Part shown: positions 3,834 to 12,836 of the stretch, in pieces | Numbering within the stretch: the stretch's first letter is position 1 | Layout: each line of letters opens with the position of its first letter | Assembly: GCA_030041215.1 (NCBI GenBank) | Contig: JASHOH010000037.1 | Coordinates: 1 to 64,000 of the forward strand | Direction: 5' to 3' | From: Candidatus Sulfotelmatobacter sp. | GTDB lineage: Bacteria; Acidobacteriota; Terriglobia; Terriglobales; Acidobacteriaceae | DNA length: 64,000 nucleotides | Notes under the pieces: model-generated | Told to the model about the DNA's origin: nothing | Database searches by the model: none | The model's input: the letters and a program-made list of their open reading frames with translations, nothing else | Made by a program: the position numbers and the translations under genes

Positions 3834-4559
3834 TCACGCTGCCCAGGGAATTGGCAGCGATGCCGGTTGGAGCTTGGTTGCGATCCTTACGAGGTCGGCG
3901 AGTGAATTCGCCTTCATCTTTTGCATAACCTGCCCGCGGTGCGCCTTCACAGTTATTTCGCTAATGCCTAGTTCGCGGCCGACCTGTTTGTTCAACAAGC
4001 CGGAAACCACCAGCGCCATCACTTGCCGTTCTCGACGAGTCAGTGACGAATAATAGTTCCGCAGATCGCTAATCTCCATTTCCCGATCGAGGGCCAGGCG
4101 GCTGCGCTCCAGGCTCTCACGGATTGCGCTCAACAGAACTTCAGTACTGAACGGATTCAGGAGAAAATCGACCGCCCCGGCCTTCATGGCTTGCACCGTT
4201 GTCTGAATGTCTGCGCAGGCCGAAATGACAATAATCGGCGTCTCTGGGCGCTCTCGGGCGATTTGCTTTTGCGCTTCGAGGCCATTCAGATCTGAAGGGG
4301 AGATCACTAAGATCAGACAGTTCGGGACAAGCGGCCGCGGCCTGGCGAGAAATTCTCGAGGCGATTCGAATGACTCGGTCTGCCAGCCTTCGCGAGCGAT
4401 ATGTGATTTCAGCGACTCTCGTTCAGAATTGTCGTTGGTTATAAGAAAGATGGTTGGTATGCCGTTCGAGTTGGGTAGTTCGCCAAGTTTGTGGCTCAAT
4501 AGGTATGCAATCTTCGTGGGGTTGTCCCCAAAGGTTCTTGTTGTTGCAGCCGAAGCCAT
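3834..4559 (-). CDS. FixJ/NarL-type regulator with degenerate receiver
   Basis: A 241-residue DNA-binding regulator: a receiver-like domain (about 35-150), a helical linker and a LuxR-type HTH (about 170-230; LTRRERQVMALV, ISEITVKAHR). The HTH is intact. The receiver has lost every phosphorylation residue. The acidic pair is Thr41-Asn42, the phosphoacceptor Asp is Val85 (CLILVISPSDLNG), the Thr switch position is Ser113, and the Lys of the usual KPF is Asn135 (NPF). It therefore probably works without phosphorylation, sensing another signal or acting constitutively. No histidine kinase is nearby. It is the best in-window candidate to bind the palindromic operators found between 3.7 and 20.2 kb, but that link is unproven. 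Confidence 0.88.
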   Translation of the reverse strand: MASAATTRTFGDNPTKIAYLLSHKLGELPNSNGIPTIFLITNDNSERESLKSHIAREGWQTESFESPREFLARPRPLVPNCLILVISPSDLNGLEAQKQIARERPETPIIVISACADIQTTVQAMKAGAVDFLLNPFSTEVLLSAIRESLERSRLALDREMEISDLRNYYSSLTRRERQVMALVVSGLLNKQVGRELGISEITVKAHRGQVMQKMKANSLADLVRIATKLQPASLPIPWAA

Positions 4560-5120: not shown

Positions 5121-5188
5121 CCAATACATACTTTGGTACTGGCCGATACGTTCGTCCAATTGATTCGCCCCCGCGCTTCTGGCCTAAT
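5121..5188 (+). promoter_or_regulatory. Operator-promoter (site B)
   Basis: The palindromic operator at 5121-5162 reads GGTACTGGCCGATAC flanked by CATACTTT and TTCGTCCAATTG. TTGATT (5160-5165) overlaps its right end as -35, then exactly 17 bases, then CCTAAT (5183-5188) as -10. Initiation near 5195 means the next gene must start at or after 5205. Confidence 0.65.
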
Positions 5189-5204
5189 CGCGGATGTGCT
5201 TTCA

Positions 5205-5552
5205 ATGCACGAGAAAACGCAAATGACGGTCGCACAGGTCACATGGTCAATGCAAGATAGTGGGTATTCAATGAACGAGCAAGATGAGTTCTCCGATTCG
5301 ATTTATGAGGAGCAGACACAGCTCGCGGAGCGCGAGCTGTCTTCCTACCTTGGTGCGGTGACGAGATTGTACGGACCGGAGCAGGCCAAGCTTGCGGCTG
5401 AGGATTGGCTCGATGAATCGGACCTCATGGATAGCCCACCTCGATCAGAGGCCCGAAATTGGCGCGCGGTCACGATCGCGGCGTCGGCTCGATTGGCAAA
5501 TCGAGTCAACGCCGGAGTGTCGGGTGCGACCGCTCGGCGCGTCAGCAACTGA
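5205..5552 (+). CDS. Small acidic hypothetical protein
   Basis: About 115 residues, acidic in its first half (DEFSDSIYEEQTQLAERELSS) and with no signal peptide. I do not recognise a family. The frame is open from 5133, but operator-promoter B occupies 5121-5188, so an in-frame ATG at 5205, 5223 or 5271 is the realistic start; I use 5205. Its stop codon overlaps operator site C, so this short gene is sandwiched between two copies of the operator and is likely part of the same regulon as the downstream hydrolase. Confidence 0.55.
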   Translation: MHEKTQMTVAQVTWSMQDSGYSMNEQDEFSDSIYEEQTQLAERELSSYLGAVTRLYGPEQAKLAAEDWLDESDLMDSPPRSEARNWRAVTIAASARLANRVNAGVSGATARRVSN

Positions 5553-5588
5553 TCCGAAGGTATTGTCGATACCGTCGTCTAATTGTTT
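5550..5588 (+). promoter_or_regulatory. Operator (site C) upstream of hydrolase
   Basis: The operator reads CGAAGGTATTGTCGATACC then GTCGTCTAATTG, beginning on the stop codon of the preceding gene. TTGTTT at 5583-5588 occupies the -35 position. The -10 expected 17 bases later is poor (CCGGAT), so the operator is clear but the promoter part is weaker than at sites B, D, E and G. Confidence 0.55.
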
Positions 5589-5688
5589 CGGCATTGCTGA
5601 AAATGCCGGATGGAACAAAAAGCGTACGCAGTTTCGAGATTAATCACGGATCTATTATTACTAGATGACAATAAAAGGAGACAATTTC

Positions 5689-6543
5689 ATGGCGACAATC
5701 ACAACTAAAGACGGTGTGGAAATTTTCTATAAGGACTGGGGCCCGAAGGACGCTCAACCCATCGCGTTTCATCACGGCTGGCCCCTTTCGGCGGACGACT
5801 GGGACGCGCAAATGCTGTTTTTCCTTTCCAACGGCTATCGCGTCATTGCGCATGACAGGCGTGGCCACGGCCGCTCTTCGCAAGTGGCCACTGGCCATGA
5901 CATGGATCATTACGCGTCTGACGCCTCGGCTGTAGCCGAGCATCTCAATTTGAGGAATGCTATTCACGTCGGACACTCGACCGGTGGTGGCGAGGTGGCT
6001 CGCTATGTCGCGAAATACGGCCAGCCGCAGGGTCGCGTAGCCAAAGCCGTACTGTTGGCGTCTGTTCCCCCAATTATGGTCAAGACCGAGAAGAACCCAG
6101 GCGGAACTCCAATCGAAGTCTTCGACGGTTTGCGCAAGGCGCTAGCTGCGAACCGGGCGCAGTTTTTTCTCGATCTTCCTTCTGGTCCGTTTTACGGCTT
6201 CAACCGGCCTGGGGCGAAGGCATCGCAGGGAATCATCGAGAATTGGTGGCGGCAGGGAATGATGGGCAGCGCTCTCGCCCACTACGAAGGCATCAAAGCG
6301 TTCTCTGAGACAGACCAAACGGACGATCTGAAAACGATCACGGTGCCGACGCTCGTATTGCAGGGTGACGATGACCAGATCGTACCCTACAAAGACGCTT
6401 CATTGCTGCAAGCCAAACTGCTCAAGAATGCCACGCTGAAAATTTATCCGGGCTATCCCCACGGCTTGATGACCACTCATGCCGACGTGATCAACGCGGA
6501 GATCCTTGCATTCATCAAGGGGGCTGCGGCCAAAGCTGCGTGA
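5689..6543 (+). CDS. Alpha/beta hydrolase, non-heme chloroperoxidase-like
   Basis: A 284-residue single-domain alpha/beta hydrolase of the arylesterase/cofactor-free haloperoxidase branch. The nucleophile is Ser97 in GHSTGG, the acid is Asp near 228 (GDDDQIVP) and His258 (YPHGL) completes the triad. HHGWP near 28-32 is the oxyanion region. The start at 5689 follows AAAGGAGACAATTTC, a good ribosome binding site. An in-frame ATG at 5665 lies upstream of that site and is less likely. There is no signal peptide, so it is cytoplasmic. It is downstream of operator site C and probably a member of the island regulon. Family members hydrolyse esters and can form peracids; the physiological substrate is unknown. 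Confidence 0.88.
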
Positions 6544-6984: not shown

Positions 6985-7797
6985 TCATTTAGGCTTGCGC
7001 GGCGCAACGAGGGCGACGGCAGATTCTGAGGTGAGATAAAGGAACGTAAACGTTTCCTGCAGGTAAAGGCGAACCTGCTTGTCATTGTGACTCAGATAGC
7101 CGATCGAGGCATCCTGGCCAATGTGAAGATCGAGGTCGCCGCCGCGGGTGGTGACGACGAAGGCGCCGTCAATGGCTGGCGCCCAGACGATTTCGCAATC
7201 ACCCAGGCGTTTGACATGTTCGAGAACCGGATAGCCGTAGTCACTTGTTTCGGCGAGTTCGGTATAAGCATCGGCGCTGAGCAGAATGGAGTAGGGACCG
7301 TTGACCCCGACGAGACGCAACTGGCTTAAGGCCTGCGCGAAGGCCTCAGGGTACTTGCGCACATCAGCGGGGAGGGACTTTTTAGGATTGCTGGTGCCCT
7401 GGCGAACGCCGACGATTCCGGCGGCGGCGTAACCTTCGAAGATAGCGCGGTCTTCCGCGAATGCGAGCTTTCGCGCAGCGTCCTTTGCGGGTTGCCAATC
7501 GGAATCATTTGCGCCGCGCTCTACGTCGTCAATCATCTGGCGCTCAAGCTCGAAGGGAACCCGCAGCTCGACCAAGGCTTTCACTTCGCGCTGTCGGGCT
7601 GTGATGTCGTCTCCGGGCGCGGCGATTGTGCGCAGGTGGCCTGTTCCCACAGCCGAGAGAGCACTACCTGAGGGGCCATGAAAATCCACAACGCGGCGAC
7701 CGGCCAGATAGCGTTTGATCGTGCGCGAGGTTTCTTCCTCGATTTGAGCCCACGCCGCATCAGAAATCGGAGCCAACTCACGATGTAGGTTATTCAC
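6985..7797 (-). CDS. Encapsulin shell protein, family 1 (linocin-M18-like)
   Basis: A 270-residue protein with an HK97-type capsid fold that self-assembles into a protein nanocompartment. The N-terminus (MNNLHRELAPISDAAW, then IKRYLAGRRVVDF) matches the family 1 helix that binds cargo peptides. The middle E-loop and the C-terminal half (residues about 215-265, with YLQETFTFLYLTSESAVAL) are also characteristic. The length is standard. Its start overlaps the end of the DyP peroxidase gene by 8 bases, so shell and cargo are translationally coupled with cargo first. Transcription is predicted from operator-promoter D. Confidence 0.96.
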   Translation of the reverse strand: MNNLHRELAPISDAAWAQIEEETSRTIKRYLAGRRVVDFHGPSGSALSAVGTGHLRTIAAPGDDITARQREVKALVELRVPFELERQMIDDVERGANDSDWQPAKDAARKLAFAEDRAIFEGYAAAGIVGVRQGTSNPKKSLPADVRKYPEAFAQALSQLRLVGVNGPYSILLSADAYTELAETSDYGYPVLEHVKRLGDCEIVWAPAIDGAFVVTTRGGDLDLHIGQDASIGYLSHNDKQVRLYLQETFTFLYLTSESAVALVAPRKPK

Positions 7798-8887
7798 GGG
7801 AATTTTCTCCTTTCAGGGAACCTATGCCGAGCGAACCATCCTTGGATGGCTCGGTCGAGGCGGAAGTTTCAACGGGCGCTGAGCCTGCTGCGGACTGTGA
7901 GCTGGAGGATGACGCGGACTGGTCAGGGGAAACACTGTCGAGAAACGTGGCAGTCGGGATGAAAAACAGGTTTCCCGTAACCGCAGTGCTGAAGTCGAGG
8001 ATGCGATCGTAATTGCCTGGCGGGCGACCGATAAACATGTTTTCGAGCATTTGCTCGATGGTGCGGGGCGAGCGGCTGTAGCCGATGAAATAGGTGCCGA
8101 ACTCGCCGTGGCCGGGGCGGCCGAAAGGCATGTTGTCGCGCAGAATTTTGATTCCCCTGCCGTTTTCTTCGATGGTGGTGAGAGCATTGTGAGCAGACGT
8201 GGGCTTGACGGAGTCGTCGAGTTCGATATCGGAAACTTTTGTGCGGCCGATGATTTTTTCCTGGGCTTCGGTAGGAATCTTGTTCCAGGCGTCGAGATTG
8301 TGAAGATACTTTTGGACGATGACATAGCTCCCTCCGGCGAAAGCGGGATCTTCATCACCAATGAAGACGGCCTCGGCGGCCGCGTTGCCTGTGGGATTTT
8401 CCGTGCCGTCCACGAAGCCGAGGAGATCGCGTTCGTCGAAGTAGCGGAACCCGTGCACTTCGTCGGCGGTGGTGACGGCGCCTTCCAGGCGAGCCATGAT
8501 TTGCGTGGCGAGCTCGAAACAGAGATCCATATGCTTGGCGCGGATGTGAAAAATCAAGTCGCCGGGGGTAGAGACCGCGTGGCGCGGACCAGGGCGAATT
8601 TCACGGAAGGGATGAAGTTCGGTCGGACGTGGCGAACCAAAGAGGCGGTCCCATGCATCAGAGCCGAAACCCATGATGCAGGAGAGAGAGCCTTCGAGGG
8701 CGCGAAAGCCGACAGAGCGCAGAAGCGCGGAGAGATCGGCGCACAGGGAAAGCACTGCGGCGCGATTTTCCTCACCGGAATTGATGGTGACGACGAGAAA
8801 AATTGCAGCGCTAGTGAGCGGAGAGGAAACGGGCTGCGAGACAGTTAACGCGGCCGATGCTTGCGTGGTCAGGGACTCGGATGCCAT
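7790..8887 (-). CDS. DyP-type heme peroxidase, encapsulin cargo
   Basis: A 365-residue dye-decolorizing peroxidase that reduces hydrogen peroxide using heme. Asp160 lies in the signature GFVDGTENP, the proximal heme ligand is His233 (PTSAHN), and distal Arg250 and Asn252 are in ILRDNMPFG. There is no export signal. After the enzyme fold (to about 318) comes a flexible Ser/Ala-rich linker (about 319-350) and then the targeting peptide GSLGIGSLK (351-359), which is known to dock cargo on the inner face of family 1 encapsulin. The shell gene follows with an 8-base overlap. Together they should form a peroxidase-filled nanocompartment for oxidative stress. Operator-promoter D lies 125-190 bases upstream of the start. 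Confidence 0.96.
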   Translation of the reverse strand: MASESLTTQASAALTVSQPVSSPLTSAAIFLVVTINSGEENRAAVLSLCADLSALLRSVGFRALEGSLSCIMGFGSDAWDRLFGSPRPTELHPFREIRPGPRHAVSTPGDLIFHIRAKHMDLCFELATQIMARLEGAVTTADEVHGFRYFDERDLLGFVDGTENPTGNAAAEAVFIGDEDPAFAGGSYVIVQKYLHNLDAWNKIPTEAQEKIIGRTKVSDIELDDSVKPTSAHNALTTIEENGRGIKILRDNMPFGRPGHGEFGTYFIGYSRSPRTIEQMLENMFIGRPPGNYDRILDFSTAVTGNLFFIPTATFLDSVSPDQSASSSSSQSAAGSAPVETSASTEPSKDGSLGIGSLKGENSRE

Positions 8888-9011
8888 GGCAATTCTAGCT
8901 GCGGCAACGGAATGCCGTTAAAACAAACTCTAGCGCAATCTTTCTACTACGTCGGACGCGAGATTCCAAACTTTTTCATCTTGTACACGAGGATCTCAAC
9001 CGCTCATGGGC

Positions 9012-9077
9012 ATTAAGCCAGAAGCCACGTACGGAATCCATTGGACGAAGGTATCGCCGATACCATTGCATCAATGG
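9012..9077 (-). promoter_or_regulatory. Operator-promoter of the encapsulin operon (site D)
   Basis: The operator at 9039-9077 is a palindrome: CATTGGACGAAGGTATCG, CC, GATACCATTGCATCAATGG. On the minus strand its end abuts TGGATT as -35, then exactly 17 bases, then CTTAAT (9017-9012) as -10. The predicted start near 9005 gives a leader of about 118 bases before the DyP gene. Confidence 0.68.
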
Positions 9078-9143: not shown

Positions 9144-9206
9144 CTAATACGAAGGTATTGTCAACACCATCGTCTAATTGTTTTGGGCCCGGCGTAATAG
9201 CCTAAC
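9144..9206 (+). promoter_or_regulatory. Operator-promoter (site E)
   Basis: The operator at 9144-9180 reads ACGAAGGTATTGTCAACACC then ATCGTCTAATTG. TTGTTT (9178-9183) is the -35, followed by 17 bases and CCTAAC (9201-9206) as -10. It lies back to back with site D and points to the gene at 9347. Confidence 0.62.
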
Positions 9207-9346: not shown

Positions 9347-9691
9347 ATGTCAATTTCTTCGGCGCGTTCGAATCTGGTGGTCATTGCTCTGGCGTTCGTG
9401 GCTGTCGCGAGCTGGCAGGCCACGTTGGCCCAGGAGGATCTGATCCGCATTGTTTCAGGCATTGTGAAACACGTCGATAAAGATGCCAAGACAATTGTCG
9501 TGAAGGCTGACGACGGTGTGGAACACACGGTGAAGTGGACGGACAAGACGACCTGGGAAGGCATCAAAGACTCCGGCAAAAGCATTAAGGAGGGTTCTAA
9601 GGTCTCTGTGAAATATACCGAAAAGGCCGGGGAGAAAACGGCTGTCGGGGTCAAAGATATTGGGAAAGACACTGCCAAGGGGGTTAAATAG
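9347..9691 (+). CDS. Small secreted protein of unknown function
   Basis: A 114-residue protein with a clear signal peptide (residues about 1-28, ending ATLAQ), so exported. The mature part is short, beta-rich and Lys-rich: a fold with TIVVKADDGVEHTVKW, then a lysine- and glycine-rich tail with repeated KxGxKTAVGVKDIGK-type segments. It resembles small OB- or SH3-like secreted domains but I cannot name a family. GAAAGGGGAGCT before the start serves as ribosome binding site. Operator-promoter E lies upstream, giving a leader of about 134 bases. Confidence 0.7.
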   Translation: MSISSARSNLVVIALAFVAVASWQATLAQEDLIRIVSGIVKHVDKDAKTIVVKADDGVEHTVKWTDKTTWEGIKDSGKSIKEGSKVSVKYTEKAGEKTAVGVKDIGKDTAKGVK

Positions 9692-12043: not shown

Positions 12044-12106
12044 TTCATACCAAAGTATTGTCGATACTATCGTCCAATTGTCTTGCCTTAATTCTGCTGG
12101 TCTCAT
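12044..12106 (+). promoter_or_regulatory. Operator-promoter (site F)
   Basis: The operator at 12044-12080 reads ACCAAAGTATTGTCGATACT then ATCGTCCAATTG. TTGTCT (12078-12083), 17 bases, then TCTCAT (12101-12106) fit -35 and -10 spacing. The predicted leader to the DJ-1 family gene is about 35 bases. Confidence 0.58.
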
Positions 12107-12146
12107 TCTTGCAACCGAACCTCAGCACAAGACAAAGGAGGCAAAT

Positions 12147-12836
12147 ATGAAAATCTTGATGGTATTCACGTCGCACGATCAACTCGGTAATACTGGCCGT
12201 CCAACCGGTTTCTGGCTGGAAGAGGGTGCGGCTCCCTACTTTGTTTTCCGAGACGCCGGCGTCCAATTGACTCTCGCCTCGCCCAAGGGCGGTCAGCCGC
12301 CGATCGATCCAAAGAGCGACCTTCCGGAGAATCAGACCCCTGCCATGGCTCGCTTTAAGCGGGATGCGGCGGCGCAGAAAGCGTTCGCCAGCACGCTCAA
12401 GCTCGCAAACGTAAAGGCAGAAGATTACGACACTGTGTTTTATCCGGGCGGGCACGGCCCGATGTGGGATCTTGCGGAGGACCCCGTGTCGATCGCTCTT
12501 CTCGAATCTTTCTACAATTCTGGCAAGCCAATCGCATTGGTCTGCCACTCGCCCGGGGTGCTTCGACATGTTAGGTACCAGGGCGCCCCTCTTGTAAAAG
12601 GAAAACACGTAACCGGCTTTACGAACGGTGAGGAAGAAGAGGTGAAGCTCACAAAGGTTGTGCCATTCCTTGTTGAAGATGAACTGCTGCGGCTCGGTGC
12701 CGTGTTTGAGAAGATGGCGAACTGGCAGCCTTTCTCCATCACGGACGGCCGCCTTATCACTGGACAGAATCCCGGATCATCGACCTCGGCGGCCCAGGCA
12801 CTGCTGAAACTCATGGCTGTGGAAGTCGCGGCTTAG
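12147..12836 (+). CDS. DJ-1/PfpI family protein (Hsp31-like)
   Basis: A 229-residue cytoplasmic protein of the type 1 glutamine amidotransferase-like superfamily. Nucleophile Cys133 sits at the elbow (ALVCHSPGV) followed by His134, with conserved Glu25-Glu26 near the N-terminus (GFWLEE). Hsp31/glyoxalase III-type members detoxify methylglyoxal or act as stress chaperones, and the GFWLEE and YPGGHGPMWDL motifs fit that branch. The start is chosen at 12147 after AAAGGAGGCAAAT. Operator-promoter F lies just upstream, tying it to the same regulon as the encapsulated peroxidase. Confidence 0.9.
   Translation: MKILMVFTSHDQLGNTGRPTGFWLEEGAAPYFVFRDAGVQLTLASPKGGQPPIDPKSDLPENQTPAMARFKRDAAAQKAFASTLKLANVKAEDYDTVFYPGGHGPMWDLAEDPVSIALLESFYNSGKPIALVCHSPGVLRHVRYQGAPLVKGKHVTGFTNGEEEEVKLTKVVPFLVEDELLRLGAVFEKMANWQPFSITDGRLITGQNPGSSTSAAQALLKLMAVEVAA

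Follow-up and report, generated by a model that had tools for sequence, protein, structure and literature searches.

Close to the start of a 64,000-nucleotide stretch of DNA from the soil acidobacterium Candidatus Sulfotelmatobacter sp. (here called the window), a DyP-type heme peroxidase gene ends in a short peptide of the kind that docks cargo in encapsulin shells, and a shell gene follows it. The locus raises the question of whether these two genes encode a peroxidase nanocompartment of a known type, how the cargo would be held inside it, and what sets the transcription of the pair.

The cargo protein and its targeting peptide

The features of the two-gene operon are as follows.

7790–8887, minus strand: DyP-type heme peroxidase of 365 aa, the encapsulin cargo (Pfam and structure matches)
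7838–7939, minus strand: Ser/Ala/Pro linker of 34 residues (residues 317–350)
7811–7837, minus strand: targeting peptide GSLGIGSLK (residues 351–359; consensus GSLxIGSLK, PMC10960027)
7790–7797, minus strand: 8 bases shared by the end of the DyP gene and the beginning of the shell gene (GTGAATAA)
6985–7797, minus strand: Family 1 encapsulin shell protein of 270 aa, GTG start, with R34, D38 and D229 present

The product of 8887–7790 matches both Dyp_perox_N and Dyp_perox_C in Pfam, and the solved proteins closest to it are DyPs associated with encapsulins (8u4z with 474 bits; 9e4r and 9e5e with 467 bits). Both proteins of the operon align to solved homologues over their full length. The heme-site residues Asp160 (in GFVDG), His233 and Arg250 are kept and are identical in the 8u4z alignment; from the roles of their counterparts in B-type DyPs, we take them to be the catalytic residues. 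The Ser/Ala-rich linker DSVSPDQSASSSSSQSAAGSAPVETSASTEPSKD joins the conserved end of the DyP fold (...FIPTATFL) to the peptide. The earlier note had estimated this linker at about 32 residues; a long Ser/Ala linker is indeed present, but its length is 34. The peptide was found exactly where the note had placed it, at residues 351–359 of the 365-aa open reading frame, and is followed by GENSRE, so that it stands six residues from the C-terminus.

The motif GSLxIGSLK is the DyP targeting peptide and is restricted to encapsulin-associated DyPs (PMC10960027). Judged by its frame, its length of nine residues, its position at the C-terminus of a DyP and its place beside a shell gene, the match is no chance event. 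The sequence features that mark a DyP as encapsulin cargo, namely the fold domains with their heme-site residues, a C-terminal GSLxIGSLK and an adjoining Family 1 shell gene, are all found here.

The shell protein and the gene overlap

The product of the second gene matches Linocin_M18 at 315 bits (Pfam) and is assigned by NCBIfam to encap_f1, the family 1 encapsulin nanocompartment shell protein, at 340.4 bits against a cut-off of 100. Its closest solved shells, in end-to-end alignment, are encapsulin 9i8d (379 bits) and Cfp29 (368 bits). In the Klebsiella shell the peptide is contacted by Arg34, Asp38 and Asp229 (PMC10960027). All three residues occur at the same positions in the window shell, the numbering being common to both because the alignment with 8u50 runs from 1–264 to 1–264. 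The reading of the locus as cargo, docking peptide and shell, proposed from the letters alone, is therefore backed by the sequence evidence of families, peptide and contact residues.

It had also been claimed that the cargo gene comes first and overlaps the shell gene by 8 bases. This is exact (7790–7797), with the GTG start of the shell gene lying within the last bases of the DyP gene. The overlap has this length because the DyP frame ends at a TAA stop codon supplied by the conserved shell start ATGAATAAC (MNN); where that start has ATG, the window carries GTG. About 5 kb from the operon, a tyrosine-recombinase-like integrase (756–1949, named by eye) is accompanied by a small ORF at 301–759.

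Recurrence of the arrangement in relatives

Eighty related DyP loci were taken from GTDB genomes. A shell gene was found in 69 of them, and all 69 carry the peptide (L102 in the form DSLGIGSLK). For the 70 loci in which the search expression picked up the peptide, the linker measures 23–42 residues, with a median of 33. Of the 69 shell-bearing loci, 52 have an overlap of 8 bases and most of the rest one of 4; among family-level relatives it is 8 bases in ten out of ten. The same linker length, usually with the same overlap, recurs in dozens of loci from Acidobacteriota and Pseudomonadota. Linker and overlap, which had been presented as if new, thus turn out to be the standard build.

Neither shell nor peptide was found for seven DyPs of 68–76% identity (L065, L076, L091, L094, L108, L110 and L113) with 0.8–3 kb searched downstream, and these proteins stop before or inside the linker. 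Since the peptide is present in 69/69 shell-bearing loci and absent from the seven shell-less DyPs, the DyP tail is, by this comparison, a module retained together with the shell. One DyP (L106, 3001–4095) has a targeting peptide, GSLGVGSLR, yet no shell gene within 3 kb downstream. Three further loci (L054, L062 and L109) are cut at or near contig ends and are uninformative on the pairing of peptide and shell. The protein families, the peptide, the overlap, the contact residues and the co-occurrence of peptide and shell in relatives are established here.

Two observations concern the shells of other members of the family. In four relatives of one genus (g4; L023/L028, L024, L025 and L026) the shell genes are split or truncated, which suggests frequent loss. 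A second shell of genome G139 (L027, 1477–3777) bears a 35-residue N-terminal extension with DDLLGIETLKE, a decayed peptide-like sequence, and the DyP there lies on the opposite strand.

Family 1 shells above the cut-off were detected in 25 of 396 genomes drawn across Acidobacteriota and in 14 of 61 close relatives, the window genome included. Peroxidase nanocompartments had been described as rarely documented in Acidobacteria; they are scarce in the searched literature, but at these counts the shells themselves are not rare. The literature search returned nothing relevant on the regulation of DyP encapsulins, on encapsulins in Acidobacteriota or Sulfotelmatobacter, or on a P460 two-component system. 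No DyP lies within about 1.5 kb on either side of 13 shells outside the nearest family (L010–L022, phylum sample), so these shells have other cargo. In the DyP tree the window groups with Candidatus Sulfotelmatobacter and Acidiferrales (100/97). The DyPs of Acidobacteriota show at least three label changes on well-supported branches of this tree; such changes fit transfer or loss and prove neither.

An operator-like element near the operon

The upstream region of the DyP gene and other parts of the window contain copies of an operator-like element.

9037–9072, minus strand: element facing the DyP gene (38.9 bits; 14.6 when scored toward 9347)
9146–9181, plus strand: element facing the divergent gene 9347 (52.2 bits)
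5551–5586, plus strand: element before the alpha/beta hydrolase gene 5665 (46.0 bits)
12046–12081, plus strand: element before the DJ-1/PfpI gene (53.1 bits)
9347–9691, plus strand: divergent 114-aa protein with a signal-like N-terminus, no Pfam match
5665–6543, plus strand: alpha/beta hydrolase
12078–12836, plus strand: DJ-1/PfpI family protein, true start probably an internal ATG

The aligned sites give a directional element of 34–36 bp, GATACSAAGGTATCGNCRATACCATCGTCCAATTG, with four copies in the window and one elsewhere in the genome. Across the whole genome the motif was sought with pattern searches. The sequence GGTRTYGNCRAYACC was found four times in these 5.03 Mb, and three of the four places fall within the window. 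A longer pattern with up to three mismatches finds five places (5554, 9045, 9149, 12049 and C202:26348) and its reversed control none. The element is present in 17 of 61 genomes, the window genome included (reversed control 0/61); two of these genomes belong to other genera, and their matches resemble chance and fall in coding sequence. The element is confined mostly to the genus Candidatus Sulfotelmatobacter. In readable loci the next gene on the same strand encodes cytochrome P460, a DUF6582 protein, epoxide hydrolase, alpha/beta hydrolase, DJ-1/PfpI or YceI, and also an enoyl-CoA hydratase or a DUF4331 protein, the last two named by eye from sequence. A possible fifth copy in the window (GGTACTGGCCGATACGTTCGTCCAATTG), with a spacer longer by one base, was seen at 5131–5165, at the start of a small ORF (5133–5552).

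A 36-bp matrix was built from 28 relatives' sites, with the window sites left out. The training sites score 48.6–63.1, values that are high by construction, and a score of 5 or more was reached in none of 20 random first-order Markov windows. The copy at 9037–9072, which ends 150 bp from the DyP start codon, is the weakest of the four in the window and scores below every training site. The idea that both this copy and that at 9146–9181 face 9347 was dropped, as matrix scoring turns 9037–9072 toward DyP.

Both elements between DyP and 9347 could nevertheless serve 9347 only, with the DyP operon transcribed from a separate promoter of its own. We regard this as a serious contender, its chances somewhat below even. 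The lower score of the DyP-facing copy speaks for it, as does the lack of the element in the closest DyP relatives: none was found upstream of the seven nearest (L034–L040, 80–89% identical; 3 kb searched in six, 0.3 kb in L037), and in L034, the nearest, the upstream sequence resembles that of the window for approximately the first 110 bp and then diverges, without the element. A sigma-70-like match at 8921–8892 on the DyP strand points the same way, such matches being near chance level. On the other hand, the 9037–9072 copy scores 38.9 facing DyP versus 14.6 facing 9347, and elsewhere the orientation of the element points to its following gene.

In one more relative, L045, a strong copy stands 1.7 kb upstream of the DyP–shell pair, and genes for P460 and a cupin-like protein lie in between. 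The association of element and nanocompartment thus amounts to two cases with two layouts, and it is absent in most relatives. The operon had been described as lying under a stress operator. A weaker copy of a real genus-wide element does face DyP, but the closest DyP relatives are without the element directly upstream. Control of DyP by the element is plausible, and the "stress" label comes from the kinds of genes that the element precedes.

Two other upstream sequences deserve mention. In some Acidobacteriaceae (L003–L006) TGCGATACTC occurs upstream of DyP and was considered as a half-site; it was dropped, as it could be a promoter −10 region. In L035–L043 a GGTAAGCT/TTAAGCT-like stretch, perhaps a −10 region, recurs about 60–130 bp upstream of DyP; it was not seen upstream of DyP in the window or L034.

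A candidate regulator

The window also encodes a possible reader of the element.

3834–4559, minus strand: FixJ-type response regulator (receiver and LuxR-type helix-turn-helix)

Among genomes of the genus, the element occurs in 10/10 that have a regulator at least 55% identical to that of the window versus 5/27 that do not (Fisher p ~9e-6, with related genomes counted as independent). In G427, G084 and G407 the regulator gene is divergent from an element copy, and in G427 and G084 a PAS histidine kinase (named by eye) lies near the regulator. A FixJ-type response regulator is the probable reader of the candidate operator. The window protein has the receiver and LuxR-type DNA-binding domain of the FixJ family, members of which stand beside the element in relatives. 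It differs from the family in lacking the phospho-acceptor Asp, which is replaced by Val, and its conserved Lys is replaced by Asn, so it does not qualify as a normal receiver, a point against the proposed control. A paralogue on contig C116 retains both residues. No sensor gene was seen beside either the window regulator or this paralogue in the window genome. Relatives of the window regulator in L150 and L148/L188 are also without the Asp, and others retain it. The searched literature yielded no description of the target element.

Comparison with known DyP encapsulins

In the DyP encapsulin of Klebsiella pneumoniae (8u4z for DyP, 8u50 for the shell; PMC10960027) the cargo gene is likewise beside the shell gene and the cargo ends in a C-terminal peptide, GSLNIGSLK there; both that shell and the window shell have the contact residues. 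The Klebsiella genes mostly form a four-gene operon with a formate dehydrogenase, an RpoH-like gene and flanking transposases (PMC10960027), whereas the window has two genes and a different promoter region. The mycobacterial and Brevibacterium DyP encapsulins (Cfp29, Linocin-M18) combine a Family 1 shell with a DyP cargo, as in the window, but mycobacterial operons commonly include accessory genes for a cupin and a short-chain oxidoreductase (PMC8346489), and neither is found beside the window operon. The nearest relatives, Candidatus Sulfotelmatobacter MAGs (L034–L037; 84–89% DyP identity), have the same tail and the same 8-base overlap and differ in having no operator-like element upstream. 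By its sequence, the window operon encodes a standard DyP encapsulin and is an ordinary representative of the most common class of encapsulins.

For Mycobacterium tuberculosis, a further cargo has been proposed, a bacterioferritin whose gene lies outside the operon (PMC8346489). By the same token the window shell might also take cargo encoded elsewhere, DyP being one of several, which we consider unlikely.

Proposed mechanism and its meaning

The best explanation, in which we have high confidence, is that the two genes form a Family 1 DyP encapsulin operon with a tail-docked cargo. The DyP would be made first, and the 8-base overlap probably couples its translation to that of the shell gene. 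The DyP is probably a hexamer, and its flexible Ser/Ala tail would allow GSLGIGSLK to extend to a pocket in the inner surface of the shell protomer. There, L353, I355 and L358 would occupy the hydrophobic pocket, K359 would meet shell D38, and shell R34 and D229 would contact the peptide backbone. By enclosing the DyP, the shell would create a peroxide-dependent oxidising nanocompartment. Shell assembly, DyP loading and peroxidase activity are expected by analogy with the solved homologues. Less firmly than these, the directional element 150 bp upstream may set part of the transcription. It would belong to a regulon of redox, aldehyde and xenobiotic genes that spans the genus, with a FixJ-type response regulator as the probable reader of the element. 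That the operon is a relic, intact in sequence but without expression or assembly, is very improbable: four relatives in the family (G155, G337, G094 and G163) have split or truncated shell genes, but both window genes are full length with contact and catalytic residues retained, and close neighbours (86–91% shell identity) have intact genes wherever the contig covers them in full.

The window system is one more DyP encapsulin, in a phylum with scant encapsulin literature. What it adds is a comparative test that pairs linker and peptide with the shell as a module, together with a candidate operator and regulator, which would give one testable case for what DyP encapsulins do in the cell and how they are controlled. 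We propose, tentatively, that the DyP nanocompartment of this lineage may be under an undescribed FixJ-type two-component regulon with a directional 34–36 bp operator, which would also drive cytochrome P460, DJ-1/PfpI, glyoxalase, epoxide hydrolase and enoyl-CoA hydratase genes. If true, a peroxidase encapsulin would become part of a defined signal-response circuit.
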